A stretch of 64,000 nucleotides of DNA from Bolinopsis microptera. Lineage: Eukaryota; Ctenophora; Tentaculata; Lobata; Bolinopsidae. Positions 1,177 through 53,630 of the stretch are shown one piece after another. How positions within the stretch are numbered: position 1 is the stretch's first letter; each line of letters begins with the position of its first letter. The notes under the pieces were generated by a model. It saw only the letters and a list, made by a program, of their open reading frames with translations. It did no database searches and was not told the DNA's origin. The position numbers were made by a program, and so were the translations under genes. The stretch lies in NCBI RefSeq assembly GCF_026151205.1, contig NC_087074.1, forward strand, positions 6,200,001-6,264,000. Direction: 5' to 3'.

Positions 1177-1866
1177 CTATTTATTCAGATAAAGTTTGAG
1201 AATCTTATCGACAATATTTGTGTTTTCGTTCATTAGTTTGTTTACATCAGATAGACTTGTAGTGGTGATAACTGCATCCAATAGAGATCGTTCTTCCAAG
1301 CTTAAAATATCTGTTAGGTCTTTTCCGCTGTCAATTAAACGCTGCTTCAAGACAACAAACAATTCGGTTTTCATCATGTATGAGAATAAAATGTCAAAAC
1401 ATTTATTTTGCTCTTTACACAATTTACTTTGTAACAGGACGTCTAGAGATTTAAGTAAACTCGATATCTTTTTACTGTTTGGTTGTTTGATTGGTACTCC
1501 TTTCCGCTTGCCTACGTGTTGCCAGTCAGTATCAGATTCTAACTCTTTAGCACTATATTCTTTGTTGGACTCATCATCGCTACTTGTTACACCACTAAAT
1601 TCATCATCACCACTACCTGGTACATCAGAGTTAGAACCACCTTGCTGAGATTCTTCAGAAACTATTGTATCAGCATCTGAATATACAGAATCCGGACCCT
1701 CCATTTTGACATCAGTCACATCTGAGTTAGCTTTTGACAGCGGCTGTAGAATTGCAGAACTTTCATCTGACTCTCGGTTCTCTCGATGATACCTACTAAT
1801 GTGTGAGGACAGACTATATTTATTGGCAAAAGACTTGTCACAGAATGAGCAGGTTACAGAATTCAT
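1177..1866 (-). CDS. C2H2 zinc-finger protein of the foldback element, left copy
   Basis: An intact 229-codon ORF. A single C2H2 finger lies near the N terminus: C6-x2-C9-x12-H22-x4-H27, with F13 and L19 in the usual hydrophobic positions. Residues ~33-110 are acidic and serine-rich (low complexity, probably disordered). A basic KRKG stretch near 119-122 could be a nuclear localisation signal. The C-terminal ~90 residues look helical and leucine-rich. I do not recognise the full-length family. The role is probably DNA binding, perhaps of the element's own ends (inference). It reads outward from the spacer. The second copy sits in the other arm, and both copies being open over 229 codons suggests either recent duplication or selection. 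No splice sites are needed. Confidence 0.6.
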   Translation of the reverse strand: MNSVTCSFCDKSFANKYSLSSHISRYHRENRESDESSAILQPLSKANSDVTDVKMEGPDSVYSDADTIVSEESQQGGSNSDVPGSGDDEFSGVTSSDDESNKEYSAKELESDTDWQHVGKRKGVPIKQPNSKKISSLLKSLDVLLQSKLCKEQNKCFDILFSYMMKTELFVVLKQRLIDSGKDLTDILSLEERSLLDAVITTTSLSDVNKLMNENTNIVDKILKLYLNK

Positions 1867-1914
1867 AACTGCAGTACAAACGTTTTATAATGCTATGCAA
1901 CAACCATTATATAG

Positions 1915-2215
1915 CAATAATCGCATAAAATCGCAAATAATCGCAAAATAATCGCATATAATCGCATATATTAGCATGTAATTGCAAATAATAGCATAAA
2001 ATTGCAAATAATCGCATATAATTGCAAAATAATTGCATAAAATAGCATATAATAGCATATAATCGCATATAATCGCATATAATAGCATATAATAATAGCA
2101 TATAATCGCATCTAATCATATATAATCACGTATATTATCTCTTAAAATCACATTTTATTATTTATACTCGCAAATAATTGCATATAATTGCAAATAATCG
2201 CATATAGTAGCAGGG
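1915..2215. repeat. TATATGCG/TATATGCT short degenerate repeats, left arm
   Basis: Irregular repeats of about 8-11 bp with the core ATAATMGCATAT. The mirrored block is at ~4740-5045. These produce spurious tyrosine/cysteine/isoleucine-rich ORFs and are not coding. Confidence 0.7.
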
Positions 2216-2767
2216 AGAATATAATCCAACTTATACATTCAACATATTAAAGATCTTTTCAAAGATTTATTTTCATGCTGATTGCCAAGCATCATCCTGG
2301 AGATGAAACTGTAACTCTTGAGTCTACCAAAGACTGCACCCAACATGTAGGAATACTTCCTAGTGGGGACATTAAAGAACCACACCAGACAGGACAAGGA
2401 GATCATGGTGAATTCTACGTCAACTAGCCAGACGGAGATCATCTTCGAGATCTATCACTTTCTGGATTATCATTCATAACCAGTAGTCAGCGCACCATTG
2501 ATTTCTGCTTTCAAATGATAACTGCTAATACTCTTGTCGATTTTAATGCACAGAAACCAGCATTTGACCGGGACCGGGACCGGGAATAGCTCAAAATTGT
2601 CAATCCCGGTACCGGGATTCCCAGTACCGGGAATCCCGGTCGATTACTGGTGCATGCAACTGGCCAGGTTTAGGTATCAGGTGATTTTTCCTGCAATTTG
2701 GTAGTTGTGAAACATCACCTTGGATTTCTGTTGTCACAAAACGTACCTTTTTAGACCTTTTCTCAAA

Positions 2768-3440
2768 GCATATAATAGCATATAATAGCATATAATAGCA
2801 TATAATAGCATATAATAGCATATAATAGCATATAATAGCATATAATAGCATATAATAGCATATAATAGCATATAATCGCATATAATCGCATGTAATATCA
2901 TTCAATAATAGCATATAATATCATATAATATCATATAATACTAAATGAATACTGAATGGATACTGAATGAATACTGAATGAATACTGAATGAATACTGAA
3001 TGAATACTGAATGAATACTGAATGAATACTGAATGAATACTGAATGAATACTGAATGAATACTGAAAATAATCGCAAATAATAGCATATAATATCATATA
3101 ATATCATATAATAGCATATAATAGCATATAATAGCATATAATAGCATATAATTGCATATAAGGGATATAATAGCATATAATAATAACATACAATCGCATT
3201 CGGTAGACTCAAGATTCAAGAATTACAGTTCAATCGCCAGCATATAATTGCATATAATAGCATATAATATCATATAATCGCATATAATAGCATTATATAA
3301 TATCATATAATCGCATATGATAGCTTATAATAGCATATAATAGCATATATAATCGCATTCGGTAGACTCAAGAGTTATAGTTCCATCTCCAACATATATT
3401 CATATAATCGCATATAATAGCATATAATATTTTATAATCG
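2768..3440. repeat. 10-bp and 11-bp microsatellites around the spacer edge
   Basis: An exact 10-bp repeat TATAATAGCA runs from ~2770. An 11-bp repeat of type AATGAATACTG occupies ~2945-3065, followed by more TATAATAGCA-type units to ~3430. Two fragments containing CGGTAGACTCAAGA (~3197 and ~3359) match a piece of the arms (~4627), so the spacer contains shuffled arm segments. Confidence 0.7.
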
Positions 3441-3500
3441 CATTTAAATGAATACCAATGGTCGTTACGTTTAAATAGATAAAATTAAATGTTTTAAAAG

Positions 3501-3604
3501 AGCGATCCATCTGGAGAAGTAGGCTAGGCGGGATTTGAACCCGCATTGTCCTGCATAGGAAAGTTGCCGTTAACTCACTAACCTGAGGCTCCAGATGGAC
3601 CGCT
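3501..3604 (-). ncRNA. tRNA-like sequence with a long closing stem
   Basis: On the minus strand GGTTCAAATCC is a perfect B box within a CGGG/CCCG T-arm. An A-box-like stretch lies 5' of it. The ends AGCGATCCATCTGGAG and its near-perfect complement (1 mismatch in 16) close the unit, longer than a 7-bp acceptor stem. The anticodon arm is not canonical, so I read it as a tRNA-derived hairpin or pseudogene rather than a working tRNA. Confidence 0.45.
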
Positions 3605-3766
3605 GTTAAAATAAAAATATGAACATGTTTAACAAGATCGTTACGAATATCACGTGACGGATGCTATTATAACGTACTTGCTTCTTATTGGTCAATTAAC
3701 TTGTCACGTAACCTTGACATTTCATTTACGAGCTTGTCAGTTTAAAATAATACATTATAGTTATAA

Positions 3767-3861
3767 ATGGCTATGTGGCACAGTTCGTTAGTCTGCCTGC
3801 TTGTGAAATGTCTCGCATTCACAGGGTCCCGGGTTCGATTCCCGTCTGTGCCACTAGCTAT
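3767..3861 (+). ncRNA. Second tRNA-like sequence in the foldback spacer
   Basis: It contains an A box close to consensus (TGGCACAGTTCG), a D-arm GGCA/TGCC, a perfect T-arm CGGG-TTCGATT-CCCG, and GGCACAG paired with CTGTGCC. The pairing extends outward to ~16 bp, as in the sequence at 3501-3604. The anticodon region forms a bulged stem with no 7-nt loop, so no isotype is assigned. Likely a tRNA-derived SINE head or pseudogene. Confidence 0.45.
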
Positions 3862-5088
3862 GGGGAGAGCATCTGAATTTTCCAAGAATCTATTCATGTG
3901 GAGTGTGGCACACCACAACAAAGGTGCATTCTTCCTAGATCAAGAGAACCGTGAGGAGTATGATATGAGGTGATGTTGTATTGAGTTACATTGTCGGGGG
4001 GTCAATTATCGGGGGGTCAATTGTCGGGGGGGGGACAATTTTCACCTACCCAATGGATTATATATGTGATCGAATGATATTACATGCGATTATATGCGAT
4101 TATATGCTATTATATGCTATTATATGCTATAATATGCTATTATATGCTATTATATGCGATTATATGCTATTATATGCTATTATATGCTTTGAGAAAAGGT
4201 CTAAAAAGGTACGTTTTGTGACAACAGAAATCCAAGGTGATGTTTCACAACTACCAAATTGCAGGAAAAATCACCTGATACCTAAACCTGGCCAGTTGCA
4301 TGCACCAGTAATCGACCGGGATTCCCGGTACTGGGAATCCCGGTACCGGGATTGACAATTTTGAGCTATTCCCGGTCCCGGTCCCGGTCAAATGCTGGTT
4401 TCTGTGCATTAAAATCGACAAGAGTATTAGCAGTTATCATTTGAAAGCAGAAATCAATGGTGCGCTGACTACTGGTTATGAATGATAATCCAGAAAGTGA
4501 TAGATCTCGAAGATGATCTCCGTCTGGCTAGTTGACGTAGAATTCACCATGATCTCCTTGTCCTGTCTGGTGTGGTTCTTTAATGTCCCCACTAGGAAGT
4601 ATTCCTACATGTTGGGTGCAGTCTTTGGTAGACTCAAGAGTTACAGTTTCATCTCCAGGATGATGCTTGGCAATCAGCATGAAAATAAATCTTTGAAAAG
4701 ATCTTTAATATGTTGAATGTATAAGTTGGATTATATTCTCCCTGCTACTATATGCGATTATTTGCAATTATATGCAATTATTTGCGAGTATAAATAATAA
4801 AATGTGATTTTAAGAGATAATATACGTGATTATATATGATTAGATGCGATTATATGCTATTATTATATGCTATTATATGCGATTATATGCGATTATATGC
4901 TATTATATGCTATTTTATGCAATTATTTTGCAATTATATGCGATTATTTGCAATTTTATGCTATTATTTGCAATTACATGCTAATATATGCGATTATATG
5001 CGATTATTTTGCGATTATTTGCGATTTTATGCGATTATTGCTATATAATGGTTGTTGCATAGCATTATAAAACGTTTGTACTGCAGTT

Positions 5089-5778
5089 ATGAATTCTGTA
5101 ACCTGCTCATTCTGTGACAAGTCTTTTGCCAATAAATATAGTCTGTCCTCACACATTAGTAGGTATCATCGAGAGAACCGAGAGTCAGATGAAAGTTCTG
5201 CAATTCTACAGCCGCTGTCAAAAGCTAACTCAGATGTGACTGATGTCAAAATGGAGGGTCCGGATTCTGTATATTCAGATGCTGATACAATAGTTTCTGA
5301 AGAATCTCAGCAATGTGGTTCTAACTCTGATGTACCAGGTAGTGGTGATGATGAATTTAGTGGTGTAACAAGTAGCGATGATGAGTCCAACAAAGAATAT
5401 AGTGCTAAAGAGTTAGAATCTGATACTGACTGGCAACACGTAGGCAAGCGGAAAGGAGTACCAATCAAACAACCAAACAGTAAAAAGATATCGAGTTTAC
5501 TTAAATCTCTAGACGTCCTGTTACAAAGTAAATTGTGTAAAGAGCAAAATAAATGTTTTGACATTTTATTCTCATACATGATGAAAACCGAATTGTTTGT
5601 TGTCTTGAAGCAGCGTTTAATTGACAGCGGAAAAGACCTAACAGATATTTTAAGTTTGGAAGAACGATCTCTATTGGATGCAGTTATCACCACTACAAGT
5701 CTATCTGATGTAAACAAACTAATGAACGAAAACACAAATATTGTCGATAAGATTCTCAAACTTTATCTGAATAAATAG
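5089..5778 (+). CDS. C2H2 zinc-finger protein of the foldback element, right copy
   Basis: Same 229-codon ORF as the left-arm copy, in inverted orientation, also intact. The clear coding difference is within the acidic serine-rich region, where QQGGSN in the left copy is QQCGSN here. The finger residues (Cys6, Cys9, His22, His27) are unchanged. Start context: the ATG follows AT-rich short repeats of TATATGC type and a TTATAAAA stretch about 20 bp upstream, which could serve as a TATA-like promoter (inference). No polyadenylation signal was identified close behind the stop. Confidence 0.6.
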   Translation: MNSVTCSFCDKSFANKYSLSSHISRYHRENRESDESSAILQPLSKANSDVTDVKMEGPDSVYSDADTIVSEESQQCGSNSDVPGSGDDEFSGVTSSDDESNKEYSAKELESDTDWQHVGKRKGVPIKQPNSKKISSLLKSLDVLLQSKLCKEQNKCFDILFSYMMKTELFVVLKQRLIDSGKDLTDILSLEERSLLDAVITTTSLSDVNKLMNENTNIVDKILKLYLNK

Positions 5779-8513: not shown

Positions 8514-11500
8514 ATGCGGATATTTGTCGTGACAATAATTCTCGCGTTGAGTAGTCTCGTCGTTACTGATGTTTACATGCAGAACCCTCGAGGATCCAAT
8601 AACCGGTGAGTAACACTGTTTTACAGAAACATAGTATGTCTTTAATTCATAGTTTATAGTTAATAATAGTTAATTCTTTAATTCATCAGCATGTGTTATC
8701 CGCAACAGTTATCAGCCAGTGACACCACAAATAATCATTTGGCTGATGATACAAAGTATAGATATATATCCTCATTTAATGAACTTCTAAACTGAAGATA
8801 GTTTCACTTTTCCCGATGGAATATCATAATAGTATATCAAAATGGAAACTGCAGTGTCCTTAGACTTTTGTATCGTCTAGTTTTAAAATTTAAAAACATG
8901 TCCCCACCAGGTTGAACGAGAAGACATCAAACAGGGAGAATGCCAACAGGCTGTTCGACTCACAGAACAACAACAAGGGCGGTTACAACACTGGAGATAG
9001 ACTGGCCAGTAAGGCTGGAGATAATCCACAGAGGATTTATAACATGGTGAGTAAGCTAGACTACAGAGGATTTATAACACGGTGAGTAAGCTAGACTACA
9101 GAGGATTTATCACATGGTGAGTAAGCTAGACTACAGAGGATTTATAACATGGTGAGTAAGCTAGACTACAGAGGATTTATAACACGGTGAGTAAGCTAGA
9201 CTACAGAGGGTTTATCACATGGTGAGTAAGCTAGACTACAGAGGATTTATAACATGGTGAGTAAGCTAGACTACAGAGGATTTATAACATGGTGAGTAAG
9301 CTAGACTACAGAGGATTTATCACATGGTGAGTAAGCTAGACTACAGAGGATTTATCACATGGTGAGTAAGCTAGACTACAGAGGATTTATAACATGGTGA
9401 GTAAGCTAGACTACAGAGGATTTATAACATGGTGAGTAAGCTAGACTACAGAGGATTTATAACATGGTGAGTAAGCTAGACTACAGAGGATTTATCACAT
9501 GGTGAGTAAGCTAGACTACAGAGGATTTATCACATGGTGAGTAAGCTAGACTACAGAGGATTTATAACATGGTGAGTAAGCTAGACTACAGAGGATTTAT
9601 AACATGGTGAGTAAGCTAGACTACAGAGGATTTATAACATGGTGAGTAAGCTAGACTACAGAGGATTTATAACATGGTGAGTAAGCTAGACTACAGAGGA
9701 TTTATAACATGGTGAGTAAGCTAGACTACAGAGGATTTATAACATGGTGAGTAAGCTAGACTACAGAGGATTTATAACATGGTGAGTAAGCTAGACTACA
9801 GAGGATTTATAACATGGTGAGTAAGCTAGACTACAGAGGATTTATAACATGGTGAGTAAGCTAGACTACAGAGGATTTATAACATGGTGAGTAAGCTAGA
9901 CTACAGAGGATTTATAACATGGTGAGTAAGCTAGACTACAGAGGATTTATAACATGGTGAGTAAGCTAGACTACAGAGGATTTATAACATGGTGAGTAAG
10001 CTAGACTACAGAGGATTTATAACATGGTGAGTAAGCTAGACTACAGAGGATTTATAACATGGTGAGTAAGCTAGACTATAGAGGATTTATAACATGGTGA
10101 GTAAGCTAGACTTCAGAGGATTTATAACATGGTGAGTAAGCTAGACTACAGAGGATTTATAACACGGTGAGTAAGCTAGACTACAGAGGATTTATAACAT
10201 GGTGAGTAAGCTAGACTACAGAGGATTTATAACATGGTGAGTAAGCTAGACTATAGAGGATTTATAACATGGTGAGTAAGCTAGACTATAGAGGATTTAT
10301 AACACGGTGAGTAAGCTAGACTATAGAGGATTTATAACATGGTGAGTAAGCTAGACTACAGAGGATTTATAACATGGTGAGTAAGCTAGACTACAGAGGA
10401 TTTATAACACGGTGAGTAAGCTAGACTACAGAGGATTTATAACATGGTGAGTAAGCTAGACCATGGTGAGTTAAGCATTTCCTTTGGTCGGATTTATGGA
10501 AATATTTGAAAACTAAATGATATCCCGACCATTAGGCTGAGTCAACCAAGGAGATTTAAAATAGATGTGTAATACTCTAATAGTGTAGAGACGGAGTCAT
10601 TAGCTCACTTCCTTGACTGAGTTACACTTATATTTTAACCCCGTACTCTCTGCAATATGGTCATATATCTGCAATATCCCAGCAATACTGGTCATATATC
10701 ACAATATCCCAGCAATACTGGTCATATATCACAATATCCCAGCAATTATACTGGTCATATATCACAATATCCCAGAAATACTACGCAAGTGGACCCACCA
10801 CTAAGGAAGGTACCAAACTTATGGTAGAATGGACAAATCAGCATGGTTGTGGGGAGGACCACTCCAAAATGAACTGCAACGTTGTGATACAGTACATGTG
10901 CCAGAGTAATGGTACTGATGAAGATTACCCTGTTAGTAATGGTAGTGACGAGGAGAAAGTTATAAAACGTATTTTCTACCTGCGGGACGGAACCAGCACT
11001 GATACACAGGTTAGTCCAGTATTGACTATTAAAACCAGCACGATAACAGGACGGTAACAGGCCCATATTAGTCCTATTTTAAAACCAGCACGATAACAGG
11101 ACGGTAACAGGCCCATATTGGCCCTATTTTAAAACCAGCACGATAACAGGACGGTAACAGGCCCACATTGGTCCTATTTTAAAACCAGCACGATAACAGG
11201 ACGGCAACAGGCCCATATTGGTCCTATTTGCAACCTCGATCAGGATTACCCGGGATCGTATTTAGGTTGAGACAGGGTCCGTGATTATTGGAGGTTTGGT
11301 TCGTCTTCATACCAAAGGATTTCGACGTTGTTGGTATTACTCAGTTTTACTATTTCATAATATCAAAACCGCAGAAATTCGACGATCCAAGGAAGAAGGA
11401 GTCGGATGATAAATACGATGCCCGAATGTTGAAAAACTACGTAACAAATTCTGATAAGACAGACGGCCTACATGAAACAGTTTATTGGTACGACCAATGC

Positions 11501-21126: not shown

Positions 21127-22272
21127 TATCAATTTGGGCGTGTCCCCACGTGTGCAACTTTTCGATTTTCAACTTTAAAACTAGCCTAATGCACAATTTA
21201 TACCTATAGGAAGCAGAACTGAGCTCCACAACCCAAGGCATGGTCCAACACCAGAGAATACTAAATCGCAAAATTGACGTTTTTATAAAATAATTCTTCA
21301 AAAAAGCACAAACTTCAATGACAAATATCTTTATGAAGGAGCAAGCTAGAAAAACTTTCCGGTAGATTTTCAGAATGCTTGAACAATTATCTAAGGTAAA
21401 AATTTCCTCAGATTTTGAATAAAATTACTCCTTAATGGTTTAAAATTAATTTTAAAAGTTATTACTTTGTCAAAAATCAAGTTTTAAAAACGGTCAACTT
21501 GATGACGTCATCAAGGGGTGTTTATGACGTCAAATAATTTTTTATACAATGTAAACTAAAGTGTAAACGATTATTTGCAAGACCTGTGGTCGGAAATGGC
21601 TGTATCTTTTATACTTTTGAATCTATGGACACTTAAATACAGGCTACAATTGACTGGCAAAGCGTCTATCCCTGAATATATATGTATGTATGTATATGTC
21701 CCGACAATCTGTCGTAAAACAGGGGTTCTAGAAAACCCATTTCCCGATGCTCCTGAAACCTGACATTTTTTTTGCAGTCGATTTGGTCAACGTCTAGACG
21801 CCCTGAAAAATTTCAGATCTCTAACTCAATTTTAACATGGTTTTTAAGGCACCTGAATATGGCGATTTTGGGTTTTTTACCGAATTTCGTATAACAGTGC
21901 TGGCGAGTATTTTATGCAAATTTCTTAAAAATCTCAACATAACTATTTTTTATTCCTGTCATCTTTGACATCAAATTAGAATGTTTTGAACTAAAAACAC
22001 TACCAAAGGGGGTATAATAGTAAAGGGGGTATAATAGTAAATGGGGAACATAGTATACCCACAATAAATGCAACGGTCGTGCTTGCCAGCACTGTGATAT
22101 TGCAAAAGATACTATTTCGATATTTATGACAAGCGTGCTAAATCACTTTACAGTCAATCTTCGAAATTGTTCTAAAAGGGGCCCTCGACAGTTGAATTTG
22201 AAACCAACTGCAATCGATGTATTTTCGGGCGCTGATTCCGAATCACCGGCCCCATGACATTTGTATCACATC

Positions 22273-22486
22273 CACAGGAGGACTATAGTGCAGTGAGCAG
22301 CAGTGAGCAGCAGTGAGCAGCAGTGAGCAGCAGTGAGCAGTAGTGAGCAGCAGTGAGCAGCAGTGAGCAGCAGTGAGCAGCACTAGCAGTGAGCAGCAGT
22401 GAGCAGCAGTGAGCAGCAGTGAGCAGCAGTGAGCAGCAGTGAGCAGCAGTGAGCAGCAGTTTCTTAGCACTATAGTCCTCCTGTGC
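22273..22486. repeat. 10-bp minisatellite enclosed by a 19-bp perfect inverted repeat
   Basis: CACAGGAGGACTATAGTGC at the left and its exact complement GCACTATAGTCCTCCTGTG at the right enclose ~17 copies of CAGTGAGCAG. The unit looks like a miniature element or cruciform carrying a minisatellite. Confidence 0.85.
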
Positions 22487-22487
22487 G

Positions 22488-22583
22488 TCGTGACCCCCAC
22501 GGTCGTTTCACTATGGTTCTTATCGTTTTTACGATACAGGGGGAGCCGCGCACTCGTGCGCGGCGGGTCATACAACGTATGAC
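22488..22583 (+). repeat. Three-hairpin repeat, copy 1
   Basis: Shared sequence GACCCCCACGGTCGTTTCAC is followed by three hairpins: TATCGT-TTTT-ACGATA, GCCGCGCAC-TC-GTGCGCGGC and GTCATAC-AAC-GTATGAC. The second copy is 270 bp downstream. Confidence 0.75.
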
Positions 22584-22756
22584 AACATGACATAGGGTTA
22601 AAATGCTCCCCTGACGAGATGTTGGCGAAAAACTGTCTTGATCACGTGATATAACCGTATAAGGCCGGCCATGAAGTTAGTCTAATTTCTCTTTATGGTT
22701 AGGGTTTCAGCATATGCATTTGTTAACCGGATTGGGTTAGGATTGCATCACGTTGC

Positions 22757-22850
22757 GACCCCCACGGTCGTTTCACTATGTCCCCCTTTATCGTTCTGAC
22801 GATACAGGGGGAGCCGCGCGTGCGCGGCGGGTCATACAACGTATGACAAG
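22757..22850 (+). repeat. Three-hairpin repeat, copy 2
   Basis: Same order as copy 1. The first loop changed from TTTT to TCTG while its stem is unchanged. The middle hairpin is shorter by two base pairs on each side but still perfectly paired (GCCGCGC/GCGCGGC). Confidence 0.75.
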
Positions 22851-23199
22851 GTTAGGATTAGTATAGGGTTGGGATCAGATTAAAGGGTTAGGGTTTTGAA
22901 TAGTTGTTCAGGACCAGCAAGAGAACGGGTTGATAAAGTCACGAGACAATCGAGTGTAGAGTGATTGATCATCATCCGATTCATGAAGTTTGAAAGAAGT
23001 TACTACAATGCGCGCAATTTGGGGAATGTTCTTGGTTTAGTTTTTAGTTCTTTCGCAAAAGATATAACTATAAGCTGCGTTTATCACAGTGCTGGCAAGC
23101 ACGACCGTTGCATTTATTGTGGGTATACTATGTACCCCCTTTACTATCATACCCCCTTTACTATTATACCCCCTTTGGTACACGTTACAGTTACACGCC

Positions 23200-23263
23200 T
23201 CTTTCGTGCACGCGAAGCGTGCACTCCGGCCGGAGGCGGCGGCCGAAGGCCGCCGCCTCCGGC
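23200..23263. repeat. Two GC-rich hairpins in the right arm only
   Basis: GTGCACGC-GAA-GCGTGCAC is followed by a perfect inverted repeat made of CCGGAGGCGGCGGCC and GGCCGCCGCCTCCGG around GAA. The left arm lacks this block, so it is an insertion or deletion difference between arms. Confidence 0.8.
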
Positions 23264-24653
23264 AGAAGTTTTTCAGGCATTAAGACTCATCGGAAGTCGT
23301 TCAGCAGATTTATTTTTAGTTGAAAACATTCTAATTTGATGTCAAAGATGACAGGAATAAAAAATAGTTATGTTGAGATTTTTAAGAAATTTGCATAAAA
23401 TACTCGCCAGCACTGTTATACGAAATTCGGTAAAAAACCCAAAATCGCCATATTCAGGTGCCTTAAAAACCATGTTAAAATTGAGTTAAAGATCTGAAAT
23501 TTTTCAGGGCGTCTAGACGTTGCCCAAATCGACTGCAAAAAAAGTTTAAGGTTTCAGGAGCATCGGGAAATGGGTTTTCTAGAACCCCTGTTTTACGACA
23601 GATTGTCGTGATATATACATATTCAGGGATAGACGCTTTGACAGTCAAATGTAGTCAATTGTATCCTAAATTTAAGTGTCCATAGATTCAAAAGTATAAA
23701 AGATACAGCCATTTCCGACCACAGATCTTGAAAATAATTGTTTACACTTTAGTTTATATTGTATACAAAAATTATTTGACGTCATAAACACCCCTTGATG
23801 ACGTCATCAAGTTAACCGTTTTTAAAACTTGATTTTCGACAAAGTAATAACTTTTAAAATTGATTTTACACCATTTAAAAGTAATTTTTTTCAACATCTG
23901 AGGAAATTTTTACCTTAGATAATTGTATAGGCATTCTGAAAATCTACCGGAAAGTTTTCTTATCTTACTCCTTCATAAAGATATTTGCCTTTGAAGTTAG
24001 TGCTTTTTTGAAAAATTATTTTATAAAAACGTCAATTTTGCGATTTAGTATTCTCTAGTGTTGGGCTATCCCTTGGGTTGTGGAGCTCAGTTATGCTTTC
24101 TATAGGTATAAATTGTGCATTAGGCTAGTTTTAAAGTTGAAAATCGAAAAGTTGCACACGTGGGGACACGCCCAAATTGATTAAAAATTGCTAAAATCAC
24201 TGAAAATTGGTGTTTTCACGATTTTTATCAACTTTGGAGTCCCGCTGTGATCCAAGTTCTATTTGAAATCTTTTGAAACTTTGCACTCTTATCAAACTAT
24301 ATATAAAATACCGCTATGCAAAAATTTACGGCGATTCAGTATTGGATGCGCACGCAACAACCGCTCAAAGTTTGCACGTGCGAACGGTGAGAATTTTGCT
24401 CATTCGTGATTTCGAACAAATTCTGCTTTACCACGACAGTTCAATGTCATTATATATGAATTTAATGGCAACTTGAATGATTATAATGTTTTATGTTCAG
24501 TCAGTGATAGACCGATATGCTTACCTAAACACAAGGAAATGTTTTTAAAGGAAAAATTTCGAAATCGTTGAAACTTCCTCCTTATTAATGAAGACATCAG
24601 TTTATATTTCGACTTTATAAAATACCCTGACATTATAATCAAAAAGAGATGAT

Positions 24654-29519: not shown

Positions 29520-32500
29520 CACACCAGTTTCCGTCCTCCTAAAGCTAAGTGCATCACCAGTTCCCGTCCTCCTGAAGCTAAGTACGTCACCAGTTCCCGT
29601 CCTCCTGAAGCTAAGTACGTCACTAGTTCCCGTCCTCCTGAAGCTATAAAGTACGTCACCAGTTTCCGTCCTCCTGAAGCTAAGTACGTCACTAGTTCCC
29701 GTCCTCCTGAAGCTAAGTACGTCACTAGTTCCCGTCCTCCTGGAGCTAAGTACGTCACTAGTTCCCGTCCTCCTGAAGCTAAGTACGTCACCAGTTCCCG
29801 TCCTCCTGAAGCTAAGTACGTCACTAGTTCCCGTCCTCCTGGAGCTAAGTACGTCACTAGTTCCCGTCCTCCTGAAGCTAAGTACGTCACCAGTTCCCGT
29901 CCTCCTGAAGCTAAGTACGTCACTAGTTCCCGTCCTCCTGAAGCTAAGTACGTCACTAGTTCCCGTCCTCCTGGAGCTAAGTACGTCACTAGTTCCCGTC
30001 CTCCTAAAGCTAAGTACGTCACTAGTTCCCGTCCTCCTGGAGCTAAGTACGTCACTAGTTCCCGTCCTCCTGGAGCTAAGTACGTCACTAGTTCCCGTCC
30101 TCCTGAAGCTAAGTACGTCACCAGTTCCCGTCCTCCTGAAGCTAAGTACGTCACTAGTTCCCGTCCTCCTAAAGCTAAGTACGTCACTAGTTCCCGTCCT
30201 CCTGGAGCTAAGTACGTCACTAGTTCCCGTCCTCCTGGAGCTAAGTACGTCACCAGTTCCCGTCCTCCTGAAGCTAAGGACGTCACTAGTTCCCGTCCTC
30301 CTGAAGCTAAGTACGTCACCAGTTTCCGTCCTCCTGAAGCTAAGTACTTCACTAGTTCCCGTCCTCCTGGAGCTAAGTACGTCACTAGTTCCCGTCCTCC
30401 TGGAGCTAAGTACGTCACTAGTTCCCGTCCTCCTGAAGCTAAGTACGTCACCAGTTCCCGTCCTCCTGGAGCTAAGTACGTCACCAGTTCCCGTCCTCCT
30501 AAAGCTAAGTGCGTCACCAGTTCCCGTCCTCCTGAAGCTAAGGACGTCACTAGTTCCCGTCCTCCTGAAGCTAAGTACGTCACTAGTTCCCGTCCTCCTG
30601 AAGCTAAGTACGTCACCAGTTCCCGTCCTCCTGAAGCTAAGTACGTCACTAGTTCCCGTCCTCCTGAAGCTATAAAGTACGTCACCAGTTTCCGTCCTCC
30701 TGAAGCTAAGTACGTCACCAGTTTCCGTCCTCCTGAAGCTAAGTACGTCGCTAGTTCCCGTCCTCCTGGAGCTAAGTACGTCACTAGTTCCCGTCCTCCT
30801 AAAGCTAAGTGCGTCACTAGTTCCCGTCCTCCTGAGGCTACAAAGTACGTCACCAGTTCCCGTCCTCCTGGAGCTAAGTACGTCACTAGTTCCCGTCCTC
30901 CTGGAGCTAAGTACGTCACTAGTTCCCGTCCTCCTGAAGCTAAGTACGTCACTAGTTCCCGTCCTCCTGGAGCTAAGTACGTCACTAGTTCCCGTCCTCC
31001 TGAAGCTAAGTACGTCACCAGTTCCCCTCCTCCTGAAGCTAAGTACGTCACCAGTTTCCGTCCTCCTGAAGCTAAGTACGTCACTAGTTCCCGTCCTCCT
31101 GGAGCTAAGTACGTCACTAGTTCCCGTCCTCCTGGAGCTAAGTACGTCTCTAGTTCCCGTCCTCCTGGAGCTAAGTACGTCACCAGTTCCCGTCCTCCTA
31201 AAGCTAAGTACGTCTCTAGTTCCCGTCCTCCTGGAGCTAAGTACGTCTCTAGTTCCCGTCCTCCTGGAGCTAAGTACGTCACTAGTTCCCGTCCTCCTGG
31301 AGCTAAGTACGTCACTAGTTCCCGTCCTCCTGGAGCTAAGTACGTCTCTAGTTCCCGTCCTCCTGAAGCTAAGTACGTCACTAGTTCCCGTCCTCCTGGA
31401 GCTAAGTACGTCACTAGTTCCCGTCCTCCTGGAGCTAAGTACGTCTCTAGTTCCCGTCCTCCTGGAGCTAAGTACGTCACTAGTTCCCGTCCTCCTGAAG
31501 CTAAGTACGTCTCTAGTTCCCGTCCTCCTGGAGCTAAGTACGTCACTAGTTCCCGTCCTCCTGAAGCTAAGTACGTCACCAGTTCCCCTCCTCCTGAAGC
31601 TAAGTACGTCACCAGTTTCCGTCCTCCTGAAGCTAAGTACGTCACTAGTTCCCGTCCTCCTGGAGCTAAGTACGTCACTAGTTCCCGTCCTCCTGAAGCT
31701 AAGTACGTCACCAGTTCCCGTCCTCCTGGAGCTAAGTACGTCACTAGTTCCCGTCCTCCTGAAGCTAAGTACGTCACTAGTTCCCGTCCTCCTGGAGCTA
31801 AGTACGTCACCAGTTCCCGTCCTCCTGGAGCTAAGTACGTCACTAGTTCCCGTCCTCCTGGAGCTAAGTACGTCACTAGTTCCCGTCCTCCTGAAGCTAT
31901 AAAGTACGTCACCAGTTTCCGTCCTCCTGAAGCTAAGTACGTCACTAGTTCCCGTCCTCCTGGAGCTAAGTACGTCTCTAGTTCCCGTCCTCCTGGAGCT
32001 AAGTACGTCACTAGTTCCCGTCCTCCTGAAGCTATAAAGTACGTCACCAGTTTCCGTCCTCCTGAAGCTAAGTACGTCACCAGTTTCCGTCCTCCTGAAG
32101 CTAAGTACGTCACTAGTTCCCGTCCTCCTGGAGCTAAGTACGTCACTAGTTCCCGTCCTCCTGGAGCTAAGTACGTCACTAGTTCCCGTCCTCCTGGAGC
32201 TAAGTACGTCACTAGTTCCCGTCCTCCTAAAGCTAAGTACGTCACTAGTTCCCGTCCTCCTGGAGCTAAGTACGTCACCAGTTTCCGTCCTCCTGAAGCT
32301 AAGTACGTCACTAGTTCCCGTCCTCCTGGAGCTAAGTACGTCACCAGTTCCCGTCCTCCTGGAGCTAAGTACGTCACCAGTTCCCGTCCTCCTAAAGCTA
32401 AGTGCGTCACCAGTTCCCGTCCTCCTGAAGCTAAGTACGTCACTAGTTTCCGTCCTCCTGAAGCTAAGTACGTCACTAGTTCCCGTCCTCCTGGAGCTAA

Positions 32501-34690
32501 GTACGTCACTAGTTCCCGTCCTCCTGGAGCTAAGTACGTCACTAGTTCCCGTCCTCCTGGAGCTAAGTACGTCACTAGTTCCCGTCCTCCTGAAGCTAAG
32601 TACGTCACTAGTTCCCGTCCTCCTGGAGCTAAGTACGTCACTAGTTTCCGTCCTCCTGAAGCTAAGTACGTCACTAGTTCCCGTCCTCCTGGAGCTAAGT
32701 ACGTCACTAGTTCCCGTCCTCCTGGAGCTAAGTACGTCACTAGTTCCCGTCCTCCTGGAGCTAAGTACGTCACTAGTTCCCGTCCTCCTGGAGCTAAGTA
32801 CGTCACCAGTTCCCGTCCTCCTGGAGCTAAGTACGTCACCAGTTCCCGTCCTCCTAAAGCTAAGTGCGTCACCAGTTCCCGTCCTCCTGAAGCTAAGGAC
32901 GTCACTAGTTCCCGTCCTCCTGAAGCTAAGTACGTCACTAGTTCCCGTCCTCCTGAAGCTAAGTACGTCACCAGTTCCCGTCCTCCTGGAGCTAAGTACG
33001 TCACCAGTTCCCGTCCTCCTAAAGCTAAGTACGTCACCAGTTCCCGTCCTCCTGGAGCTAAGTGCGTCACCAGTTCCCCTCCTCCTGAAGCTAAGTACGT
33101 CACCAGTTCCCGTCCTCCTGGAGCTAAGTACGTCACCAGTTCCCGTCCTCCTAAAGCTAAGTGCGTCACCAGTTCCCGTCCTCCTGAAGCTAAGGACGTC
33201 ACTAGTTCCCGTCCTCCTGAAGCTAAGTACGTCACTAGTTCCCGTCCTCCTGAAGCTAAGTACGTCACCAGTTCCCGTCCTCCTGAAGCTAAGTACGTCA
33301 CTAGTTCCCGTCCTCCTGAAGCTATAAAGTACGTCACCAGTTTCCGTCCTCCTGAAGCTAAGTACGTCACCAGTTTCCGTCCTCCTGAAGCTAAGTACGT
33401 CACTAGTTCCCGTCCTCCTGGAGCTAAGTACGTCACTAGTTCCCGTCCTCCTAAAGCTAAGTGCGTCACTAGTTCCCGTCCTCCTGAGGCTACAAAGTAC
33501 GTCACCAGTTCCCGTCCTCCTGGAGCTAAGTACGTCACTAGTTCCCGTCCTCCTGGAGCTAAGTACGTCACTAGTTCCCGTCCTCCTGAAGCTAAGTACG
33601 TCACTAGTTCCCCTCCTCCTGAAGCTAAGTACGTCACTAGTTCCCCTCCTCCTGAAGCTAAGTACGTCACTAGTTCCCCTCCTCCTGAAGCTAAGTACGT
33701 CACTAGTTTCCGTCCTCCTGAAGCTAAGTACGTCACCAGTTTCCGTCCTCCTGAAGCTAAGTACGTCACTAGTTCCCGTCCTCCTGGAGCTAAGTACGTC
33801 ACTAGTTCCCGTCCTCCTAAAGCTAAGTGCGTCACTAGTTCCCGTCCTCCTGAGGCTACAAAGTACGTCACCAGTTCCCGTCCTCCTGGAGCTAAGTACG
33901 TCACTAGTTCCCGTCCTCCTGGAGCTAAGTACGTCACTAGTTCCCGTCCTCCTGGAGCTAAGTACGTCACTAGTTCCCGTCCTCCTGAAGCTAAGTACGT
34001 CACTAGTTCCCCTCCTCCTGAAGCTAAGTACGTCACTAGTTCCCGTCCTCCTGAAGCTAAGTACGTCACTAGTTCCCGTCCTCCTGAAGCTAAGTACGTC
34101 ACTAGTTCCCCTCCTCCTGAAGCTAAGTACGTCACTAGTTCCCGTCCTCCTGAAGCTAAGTACGTCACTAGTTCCCGTCCTCCTGAAGCTAAGTACGTCA
34201 CTAGTTCCCCTCCTCCTGAAGCTAAGTACGTCACTAGTTCCCGTCCTCCTGAAGCTAAGTACGTCACTAGTTCCCGTCCTCCTGAAGCTAAGTACGTCAC
34301 TAGTTCCCCTCCTCCTGAAGCTAAGTACGTCACTAGTTCCCCTCCTCCTGAAGCTAAGTACGTCACTAGTTCCCGTCCTCCTGAAGCTAAGTACGTCACT
34401 AGTTCCCCTCCTCCTGAAGCTAAGTACGTCACTAGTTCCCGTCCTCCTGAAGCTAAGTACGTCACTAGTTCCCGTCCTCCTGAAGCTAAGTACGTCACTA
34501 GTTCCCGTCCTCCTGGAGCTAAGTACGTCACTAGTTCCCGTCCTCCTGAGGCTAAGTACGTCACCAGTTCCCGTCCTCCTGAGGCTAAGTACGTCACCAG
34601 TTCCCCTCCTCCTGAAGCTATAAAGTACGTCACCAGTTCCCGTCCTCCTGAAGCTATAAATCACGTCACCAGTTCCCCTCCTCCTCAACT
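29520..34690. repeat. 33-bp minisatellite array of ~5.2 kb (~156 copies)
   Basis: The unit is CGTCCTCCTGAAGCTAAGTA followed by CGTCACTAGTTCC. Variants are GAAGC/GGAGC/AAAGC, CACTAG/CACCAG/TCTCTAG and CGTCC/CCTCC. A 3-bp-longer form (GCTATAAAGTAC or GCTACAAAGTAC) recurs. Ordered variant blocks are repeated (~30660-30845, ~33310-33490, ~33715-33855), showing higher-order amplification. Because 33 and the indels are multiples of 3, two minus-strand frames stay open for over 1,700 codons. Variation is not synonymous-biased and there is no gene context, so this is not called coding. Almost every unit contains TACGTCA or GACGTCA. Confidence 0.9.
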
Positions 34691-35389
34691 AATGACTCCG
34701 ACTCTTTCCGCTCCATCAACTGTAACATTGACGTCACTATCATAAATGTCACTATGATTAACGTACGTCTAGCAACAGCTTCACGCTAACGACCTACACT
34801 ATGACGTCATCTTGCAAATAACCACAAGGCTCTTTTATAAGAAATGTGTCGTGGAAAGATGATAGTGATGGAATTAACTTTGATTGAGCGGCTGGATGGT
34901 TGATTTGTTACAATTCCAGATCATTAGTATTCTCATATAGTTCCACGTGTCACGTGGTCAACTTTGTAACACGTGGTTCCCGACTCCCACGTGTTTTTCA
35001 CGAGCTAACTACGTCCAAGCCTCGTATTATCATATTATATTATTCGAATTCTTATTCACAACGCATACCAAATCGGACGATTTAAGACTGTCCGATCGTT
35101 TCAGAGGCTGTAGTTTCATAGCAGTATCGGTTCTCTCAGATTATGAATATAAAGGTACAAAACCGCACATTCATCTGAAAAACGAGGAATTTGGTAGGGG
35201 TCCTGTTAGGTAGGGCGGCCATCTGCTGCCCCACTGGCCACCGGTCAGGTGACCACGTGGGGAGCACGGGACGGACACGTGCGTAACACGTGGTCAGTGC
35301 AATGTTACGAGCCGAGAACAGCAAACAAGAAGAGATGTACCTGGGACCCCTCATTCCCGGCTGTGTGTAGTACTGCATGTGTTCGCGAG
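34691..35389. promoter_or_regulatory. CACGTG/TGACGTCA-rich candidate regulatory region
   Basis: Seven CACGTG E-boxes are at 34944, 34951, 34970, 34988, 35254, 35276 and 35287. TTGACGTCAC (~34728) and ATGACGTCAT (~34801) are CRE-type sites. CACGTG is the bHLH/Myc-USF core and TGACGTCA the CREB/ATF core (known). The density suggests a promoter or enhancer of a gene starting to the right, perhaps Pax, but this is inference. Confidence 0.4.
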
Positions 35390-52003: not shown

Positions 52004-53630
52004 ATCATCTCTTTTTGATTATAATGTCAGGATAATTTACACAGCTAGTCGAAACTTCATTAACAAGGAGGTAATTTCGACGATTTCGAAATTCTGCCTT
52101 TGAAAACGTTTCCTTGTGTTTAGTTAGGTATATCTGTCGATAACCGACTGAATATGGCACTTTTTACTCATTCAAGTTGGCATTAAATTCATATATAATG
52201 CCATTTAAATATCGTGGAAAGCAGAATATATTCGAAATCACGAATGAGCAAAATTCTCACCTTTCGCACGTGCAAACTTTGAGCGGACGTTGCGTGCGCA
52301 TACAATATTGAATCACCGTAAATTTTTGCATAGTGGTATTTAATATATAGTTTGATAAGCATGCAAAGTTTCAGAAGATTTCAAAAAGAACTTGGATCAC
52401 AACGGGACTCCAAAGTTGATAAAAATCATGAAAATCAAAATTTTTAGTGATTTTAGCTATTTTAAATCAATTTGGGCGTGTCCCCACGTGTGCAACTTTT
52501 CGATTTTTAACTTTAAAACTAGCCTATAACACAATTTACACCTTTAAGAAGCAAAATTGAGCTCCACAACCCAAGGGATAGCCCAACACCAGAGAATACT
52601 AATTCACAACTTTTGTGTTTTTATAAAATTATTCTTCAAAAAAGCACTAACTTCAATAGCAAATATCTTTATGAAGGAGTAAGGTAGGAAACTTTTCCGG
52701 TAGATTTTTAGAATGCTTGAACAATTATCTAAGATGAAAATGTCCTCAGATTTTGAATAAAATTACTCTTTAATGGTGTAAAATCGATTTGAAAAGTTGT
52801 TGTTTTGTCAAAAATCAAGTTTTAAAAACACTTAAATTGATGACGTCATCAAGTGATGATGATGATGATAAATTATTTTTCAATATAAAGTAAACTGAGG
52901 TATAAACGATTATCTTTAAAACCTGTGGTTCAAAATGACTGTATCTTTTATTCTTTTGAATCTACGGACACTTAAATGTAGGCTACAATTGACTGCAAAA
53001 AGCGTCTATATATATATCTATCATATATATATATCTTCACGACAATCTGTTGTAAAACAGGGGTTCCAGAAAACCCACTTCCCGATACTCCTGAAACATG
53101 AAATTTTTTTACTGTCGACTTGGACAAGGTCTAGACGCCCTGCAAAGTTTCAGATCTCTAACTCAATTTTAACATGGTTTTTAAGGCACCTGAATATGGC
53201 GATTTTGGGTTTTTTACCTAATTTCGTATAACATGCTGGCGCGTATTTTGCGCAAATTTCTTAAAAACCTCCATATAACTATTTCTTATTCCTGTCATCT
53301 TTAACATTGAATTAGAATGTTTTGAACTTAAATGTACCTGCTGAACTACTTTCGAAAAAGTCTTAATGCCTGGAAAACAATAAAGGGGATATAATAGTAT
53401 AGGGGGTAAATAGTATTGTGAATATAAGGGCGACGGTAATGCTTGCCAGCATTGTGATTAGGGAGATCAAATAATGTTTAACAATTGATCATAGAACATT
53501 TGAATTCAACTTAAATTTTAAGTGATGAAATTAGCGCCAGATCTTATTTTAAATCTGATATGTGTGCCTTAATTTATAATAAAACACTCATTGATACATT
53601 GATAAATCAGGATGATGCATGTTATCAATA

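Follow-up and report, generated by a model that had tools for sequence, protein, structure and literature searches.

The putative DD3-3 gene of the ctenophore Bolinopsis microptera lies in a window of 64,000 nucleotides (contig NC_087074.1, positions 6,200,001 to 6,264,000, forward strand), to which the positions below refer, and its first three exons are separated by introns that carry tandem arrays (Table 1; a slash marks a splice boundary throughout). A Pfam search with the exon 1-3 protein gave no match. The exon boundaries were set by paralogues, found on searching the genome (264.65 Mb, 232 contigs) with the joined exon 2/3 protein. The copy on C5 reads straight through the exon 2/3 junction with no intron, and the copy C9a is interrupted by that intron at the homologous codon (...RRQYSM/QYYASG...); exon 2 (136 nt) is therefore taken to end at 9046, as an earlier note on this DNA had placed it, and exon 3 to start at 10776.

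Table 1. Features of the putative DD3-3 locus (window positions) and arrays beside exons elsewhere in the genome
Feature	Position	Strand	Structure or setting	Basis
Exon 1	8514..8605	+	donor CCG/GTGAGTAAC	open frame, junctions; putative start codon and signal-peptide-like leader
Exon 2	8911..9046	+	ends ...RIYNM/, phase 0	paralogues L002 (C5), L004 (C9a)
Donor array	9028..10461	+	41 x 35 bp, unit ACAGAGGATTTATAACATG/GTGAGTAAGCTAGACT	TRF, unit table
First donor GTGAGTAAG	9047..9055	+	sole frame-keeping donor	frame test
Degenerate extra copy	10462..10476	+	CATG/GTGAGTTAAGC; 42nd donor at 10466, just 3' of array
Acceptor array	10652..10782	+	4.3 x 30 bp, CCCAG acceptors; covers first 7 nt of exon 3	TRF
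Exon 3	10776..11009	+	donor CAG/GTTAGTCC	paralogues L002, L004
Intron 3 array	11029..11229	+	4 x 50 bp; starts 19 nt inside intron, junction not crossed	TRF
L008, 35 x 34 bp			donor side, sushi-like exon	Pfam E 0.022, under cut-off
L051			donor side, sushi-like exon	Pfam E 0.0025, under cut-off
L053			donor side, dynein heavy chain exon	PDB E 1.3e-6
L071			donor side, MCC/PCC-beta exon	PDB E 3.9e-23
L015			donor side, exon without database match
L050, 37 x 32 bp			donor side, exon without match in Pfam or PDB
L010			acceptor side, copine exon	E 2.8e-4, under cut-off
L062			acceptor side (doubtful), dynein exon	PDB E 6.4e-14
L055, 15 x 65 bp			donor of LMF1 exon; beside one of the 28 arrays, not counted	Pfam E 6.5e-28

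Intron 2 is arrayed at both ends, the 3' array being absent from the earlier note. The 5' (donor) array occupies 82% of the intron, and TRF reports it at period 35 with 41.0 copies, 98% match, 0% indel and a score of 2749; its copy number is as assembled, and an origin by chance is out of the question. Unit-by-unit alignment finds GTGAGTAAG intact in 41/41 copies at 9047 + 35k (k = 0..40), the last at 10447, and the degenerate 42nd donor reads GTGAGTTAAG. TRF and the unit table thus agree with the claim of the earlier note that 41 copies follow one another in phase without an indel. Its description of the unit as exon end, donor and intron bases also holds, except that the exon part is not 16 nt: the 35 bp consist of up to 19 exon-derived nt (ACAGAGGATTTATAACATG) followed by 16 intron-derived nt (GTGAGTAAGCTAGACT), and the first copy contains the last 19 nt of exon 2.

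Among full copies of the unit, five of the 35 columns vary (4, 10, 14, 32 and 33), and columns 31 and 34 are changed as well at the broken-off end of copy 41, making seven. That GTGAGTAAG is the same in all copies was correctly noted earlier, but as a sign of constraint it fails: the nine donor columns would be spared by chance with p = 0.20 given five variable columns and 0.10 given seven, so that an invariant donor between variable flanks is no evidence of selection. A weak constraint on the donor motif, which does not change although exon-derived and spacer bases do, would still be compatible with p = 0.20. Copies 16-29 are 14 identical units in a row, which indicates recent expansion or homogenization. 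Seven distinct unit types occur in the first 40 copies; the variants are clustered, copies 4-6 nearly repeat copies 1-3, and their succession departs only marginally from randomness (p about 0.04 at lags 5 and 6, of seven lags tried).

A search of the genome with 9012-9101 (exon end plus two units), in which only the best candidates were scored and very common words were passed over, listed 18 matches, all of them inside the donor array itself; a mobile element is therefore not suggested among these best candidates, and the same sequence at many loci, as a transposon-borne intron (introner) would show, is not found among the matches listed. Nor do the matches listed, from one assembly, include a second near-identical copy of the DD3-3 locus. 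Other repeats of the window are of different kinds. An inverted repeat at 1800-5155 has 1,100-nt arms (1800-2899 and 4056-5155) with 99% complementarity and 10-bp repeats within them, resembling a foldback or transposon-like element whose arms may extend past the stretch searched; nested inverted repeats at 21910-23400 (22001-22099/23082-23180, 97%; 21910-21997/23313-23400, 99%) have GGGGGTATAATAGT-like ends, and similar words at 53384 and 60475 point to a possible small DNA transposon family; and a 33-bp minisatellite of about 156 copies covers 5.2 kb at 29522-34692.

The unit of the acceptor array consists of CCCAG and a sequence resembling the first 7 nt of exon 3. Its CCCAG/ acceptors give four possible exon starts, 10683, 10713, 10743 and 10776, all in frame, the upstream three adding 31, 21 or 11 in-frame residues. 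No insert of this kind is present in the genomic coding sequence of the three paralogues compared, and for this reason 10776 is favoured as the start of exon 3. The first donor gives an open frame with all four candidate acceptors, and the 41 donors other than the first, combined with the same four acceptors, lead to a stop within exons 1-3 in 164/164 combinations, which bears out the earlier statement that any donor but the first would break the frame. Judged from frame and paralogues, the donor in use is most likely the first. When identical donors are duplicated the intron-proximal one is often preferred in classic work, and as all 41 donors are equal in nine bases aberrant transcripts may be common.

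Identities among the DD3-3 copies are 70% for C3-C9a, 69% for C9a-C9b and 64% for C3-C9b. Intron 2 of DD3-3 is not absent from relatives, as a gained intron would be, and because it is common to the C9a paralogue it is not new. C9a carries its own duplication of the donor of intron 2, with 2.1 copies of 45 bp at 100% match that start in the exon at GACAG. In C9b (L079/L005) an exon is split after DSQ by 1,790 bp, at a place where ...RLFDSQNNN(K/R)GGYN... is continuous in C3, C5 and C9a. TRF finds bases 1-1758 of the insert to be 109.4 copies of a 16-bp unit, GTACTGTGTCTCTCAG, with 93% match; the unit starts with GT and ends with CTCTCAG, giving the pattern CAG/GTACTG...CTCTCAG. The last bases of the exon upstream are GACTCTCAG, and a portion of this exon is found once more within the array. 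The insert is absent from relatives and built of a duplicated segment, as expected of intron gain, and thus seems to be a candidate newborn intron, its splicing being predicted. One gain in C9b would be simpler than losses in the other three copies; the tree of the copies is not settled. Two further features of C9b may be recorded: its intron 2 appears to lie 4 nt upstream of the C9a position, possibly by intron sliding (L079, G000:C9:16440600-16444200, and L005), and its exon 3 is followed (L005; L080, G000:C9:16436200-16438924) by at least 2.7 kb of 53-bp units, CTAACACCCGCAG/AAYGACGTAGC..., which repeat a branch-point-like CTAAC together with an acceptor.

Arrays at splice junctions occur elsewhere in the genome. 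The sample comprised 28 of the 34 distinct arrays among the matches listed, which come from the early part of the genome, almost wholly contig C1; the six left out are two TGAGTGG places and four GGTAAGT places near C1:2.2 Mb that have the appearance of a single coding repeat. By our own reading, 7 of the 28 arrays span a splice junction and an eighth is doubtful. This count is neither complete nor blind, since the 19 ORFs beside arrays that were used in database searches were picked by codon score, and 11/28 arrays were little or not tested (among them L009, L018, L049, L054, L060, L061, L064 and others without a promising ORF); one array edge was not reached for L018/L058 and L072. The exon adjacent to L015, which we take to encode a ubiquitin protease, gave no Pfam match. 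With CTAG/GTTG as acceptor, the doubtful array, L062, extends 4 nt into the exon; with GGCAG/GAGAC it ends just before the exon is reached. When the query was made two codons longer, the best PDB match scored 55.8 bits, little above the 54.2 bits of the shorter query. Two duplications of other types were seen: a 171-bp (57-codon) tandem duplication of 1.9 copies in the dynein heavy chain exon adjoining the donor-side array (L053:860-1186), and a 56-bp unit of 1.9 copies, TCTGTAG/GGTACAACTTAGCTCTGAG/GTAAG, which resembles a duplicated micro-exon with both splice sites (L045:3068-3176).

The junction arrays are not shown to be tied to donor words: arrays found with donor words lie on junctions in 6/16 cases versus 1 or 2/12 for control words (Fisher p = 0.18 or 0.40). 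In 54 arrays with units of 15-120 bp, from the window and 30 kinase loci, the latter serving only as a genome sample (in most of the kinase matches a single open frame holds the entire domain), donor motifs show no resolvable enrichment: GGTRAGT is found in 1/54 (0.35 expected from shuffles), GTRAGT in 3/54 (1.47 expected) and AGGTRAG in 1/54 (0.30 expected). Genome-wide counts of three spaced copies, 3,412 for GGTGAGT versus 1,303 for the reversed word and 6,114 for GGTAAGT versus 66, had seemed to suggest enrichment of donor words in arrays, but same-composition controls of GGTAAGT gave 1,478 (AGTGATG) and 4,030 (GTAGTGA), and such counts were dropped as evidence because single long arrays dominate them. 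At six chaperonin-family loci none of the introns, of which there are at least 23 if each gap between exon matches is counted as one, has an array across a junction (95% upper bound 12% of introns); one of these introns has a 61 x 30 bp array that ends before its acceptor, and another a 2.5 x 20 bp repeat that ends just before its CAG. This result speaks against junction arrays being universal, as do the lack of a significant difference between donor and control words and of resolvable donor-motif enrichment.

Minisatellite-like duplications of exon/intron boundaries have been described in amphioxus under the name of mirages (PMC3087553, PMC3902484). At DD3-3 intron 2 the repeat spans a true exon/intron boundary and its units carry the splice signal, and the donor array is quite probably a neutral minisatellite of this amphioxus type, one that began with a single duplication of the junction and is spliced out through the outermost sites. 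A tandem duplication that took in the final ~19 nt of exon 2 and the first ~16 nt of intron 2 would have copied the donor, its breakpoints perhaps being set by short homology between CCA-CAG of the exon and the intron end GACCATGG. Unequal exchange or slippage may then have expanded and homogenized the array to 41 copies, as the run of identical units would suggest. Recognition of exon 2, which is short, would lead splicing to join the first donor to the last acceptor of the acceptor array; removed together with the intron, the donor array would be close to neutral. The proposed rule is that the outermost site of a mirage works and that the inner copies are silent. Such arrays could accumulate at junctions because a 35-bp duplication within an exon breaks the gene, while one that crosses the donor does no harm as long as the first donor is the one used. 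The same architecture at sushi-like, dynein, LMF1 and MCC/PCC-beta donors and at the copine acceptor supports the mirage reading; in the MCC/PCC-beta array GTAAGT is kept by the outermost donor alone, the two inner copies having GTTTGT and GTTAGT.

An array with a function is improbable by comparison with such a neutral mirage. Tens of strong U1 sites might act on splicing or 3'-end choice, with copy number tuning the output, either by competition that lowers productive splicing or by U1 protection of a long intron. The intact state of all 41 donors and the large share of intron 2 given over to the array would suit this reading, as would the stop reached from any inner donor, by which inner-donor use would down-regulate the gene. 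Against it, the invariance of the donor is not significant (p = 0.20), recent homogenization, seen in the 14 identical units, suffices to explain intact donors, and arrays without donor motifs abound in the genome. The effect on U1 binding or isoform output that had been proposed in the earlier note is likewise unsupported, the amphioxus mirages being reported as leaving splicing undisturbed (PMC3087553, PMC3902484).

There is also a slim chance that the array is an assembly artefact and that the true locus has few copies, as the Bolinopsis microptera assembly was built from PacBio CLR reads with gap closing (PMC10232365) and assemblies of this kind err at arrays. However, the distinct unit types and clustered variants of the first 40 copies are not copies of one unit, similar arrays occur elsewhere in the assembly, and neither the short acceptor array nor the C9a donor duplication would be affected. 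Very unlikely is a reservoir of micro-exons, in which units read as ACAG/AGGATTTATAACATG/GTGAGT or a variant would each add RIYNM-like residues in frame: 40/40 units after the first would yield a 15-nt exon that is in frame, free of stops and flanked by AG and GT, but the pyrimidine tract is weak, the 20-nt gap between units is too short for an ordinary intron, and no such insert is found in the genomic coding sequence of the three paralogues compared, which is silent on rare isoforms. Recruitment of mirage units as exons has been proposed by the authors of the amphioxus globin study (PMC3087553).

The origin and growth of introns is an old open question for which, to our knowledge, clean intermediates are rare. 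It is possible, though we regard it as somewhat doubtful, that junction-seeded minisatellites are a recurrent route of intron growth and birth in the ctenophore genome, with DD3-3 intron 2 as an extreme stage. If so, outermost sites stay in use while inner copies form the body of the intron, and introns of the C9b type (109 16-bp GT...AG units) arise by expansion of a coding AG/GT segment. The C3, C5, C9a and C9b copies would then form a graded series running from no intron through a 2x donor and a 41x array to a candidate newborn intron. The 41 donors identical in GTGAGTAAG, together with four acceptors, form a natural experiment on the choice that the spliceosome makes between equal sites, and should arrays of this kind prove common beyond amphioxus, mirages would be no mere lancelet oddity.

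Duplication across a splice boundary is, as the earlier note had it, a known route to new splice sites (PMC3087553, PMC3443670). Human segmental duplications contain tandem repeats at exon-intron boundaries, through which introns can grow or arise; their units of about 30 bp are like those of DD3-3, and they differ in having about 4 copies on average and in belonging to young duplicates (PMC2812944). Intron gain by tandem genomic duplication, the Rogers model, is reviewed in PMC3443670. As in that model, a duplicated segment with an AG/GT-like boundary gives new splice sites, and the C9b candidate intron fits it; unlike it, DD3-3 intron 2 is an existing intron enlarged and not one newly made, and the model as reviewed takes an exonic segment into two copies, whereas 41 or 109 are found here.

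The closest likeness is to the amphioxus mirages, which are described from Adh3, globins and TnC and, in imperfect form, from PGBD5, and whose authors report or infer undisturbed splicing, by RT-PCR for the globins; both length and somatic instability are reported for the Adh3 mirage (PMC3087553, PMC3902484). No title on ctenophore arrays of this kind was found in the open-access literature searched. The DD3-3 arrays share with the amphioxus mirages tandem units over a real boundary, a splice signal inside the unit, occurrence at donor and acceptor, and an intact outermost site. They differ in their ctenophore host, in the arraying of both ends of one intron, and in having 41 copies at 98% identity versus the 3 and 6 units of the two BflGb6 haplotypes. 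The word "unusual" used earlier for the array is thus only partly right, since its kind is known from amphioxus and other arrays here (L050, L008) are of similar length: the DD3-3 donor array is of a kind already known in amphioxus, and that kind recurs in other genes of this genome.
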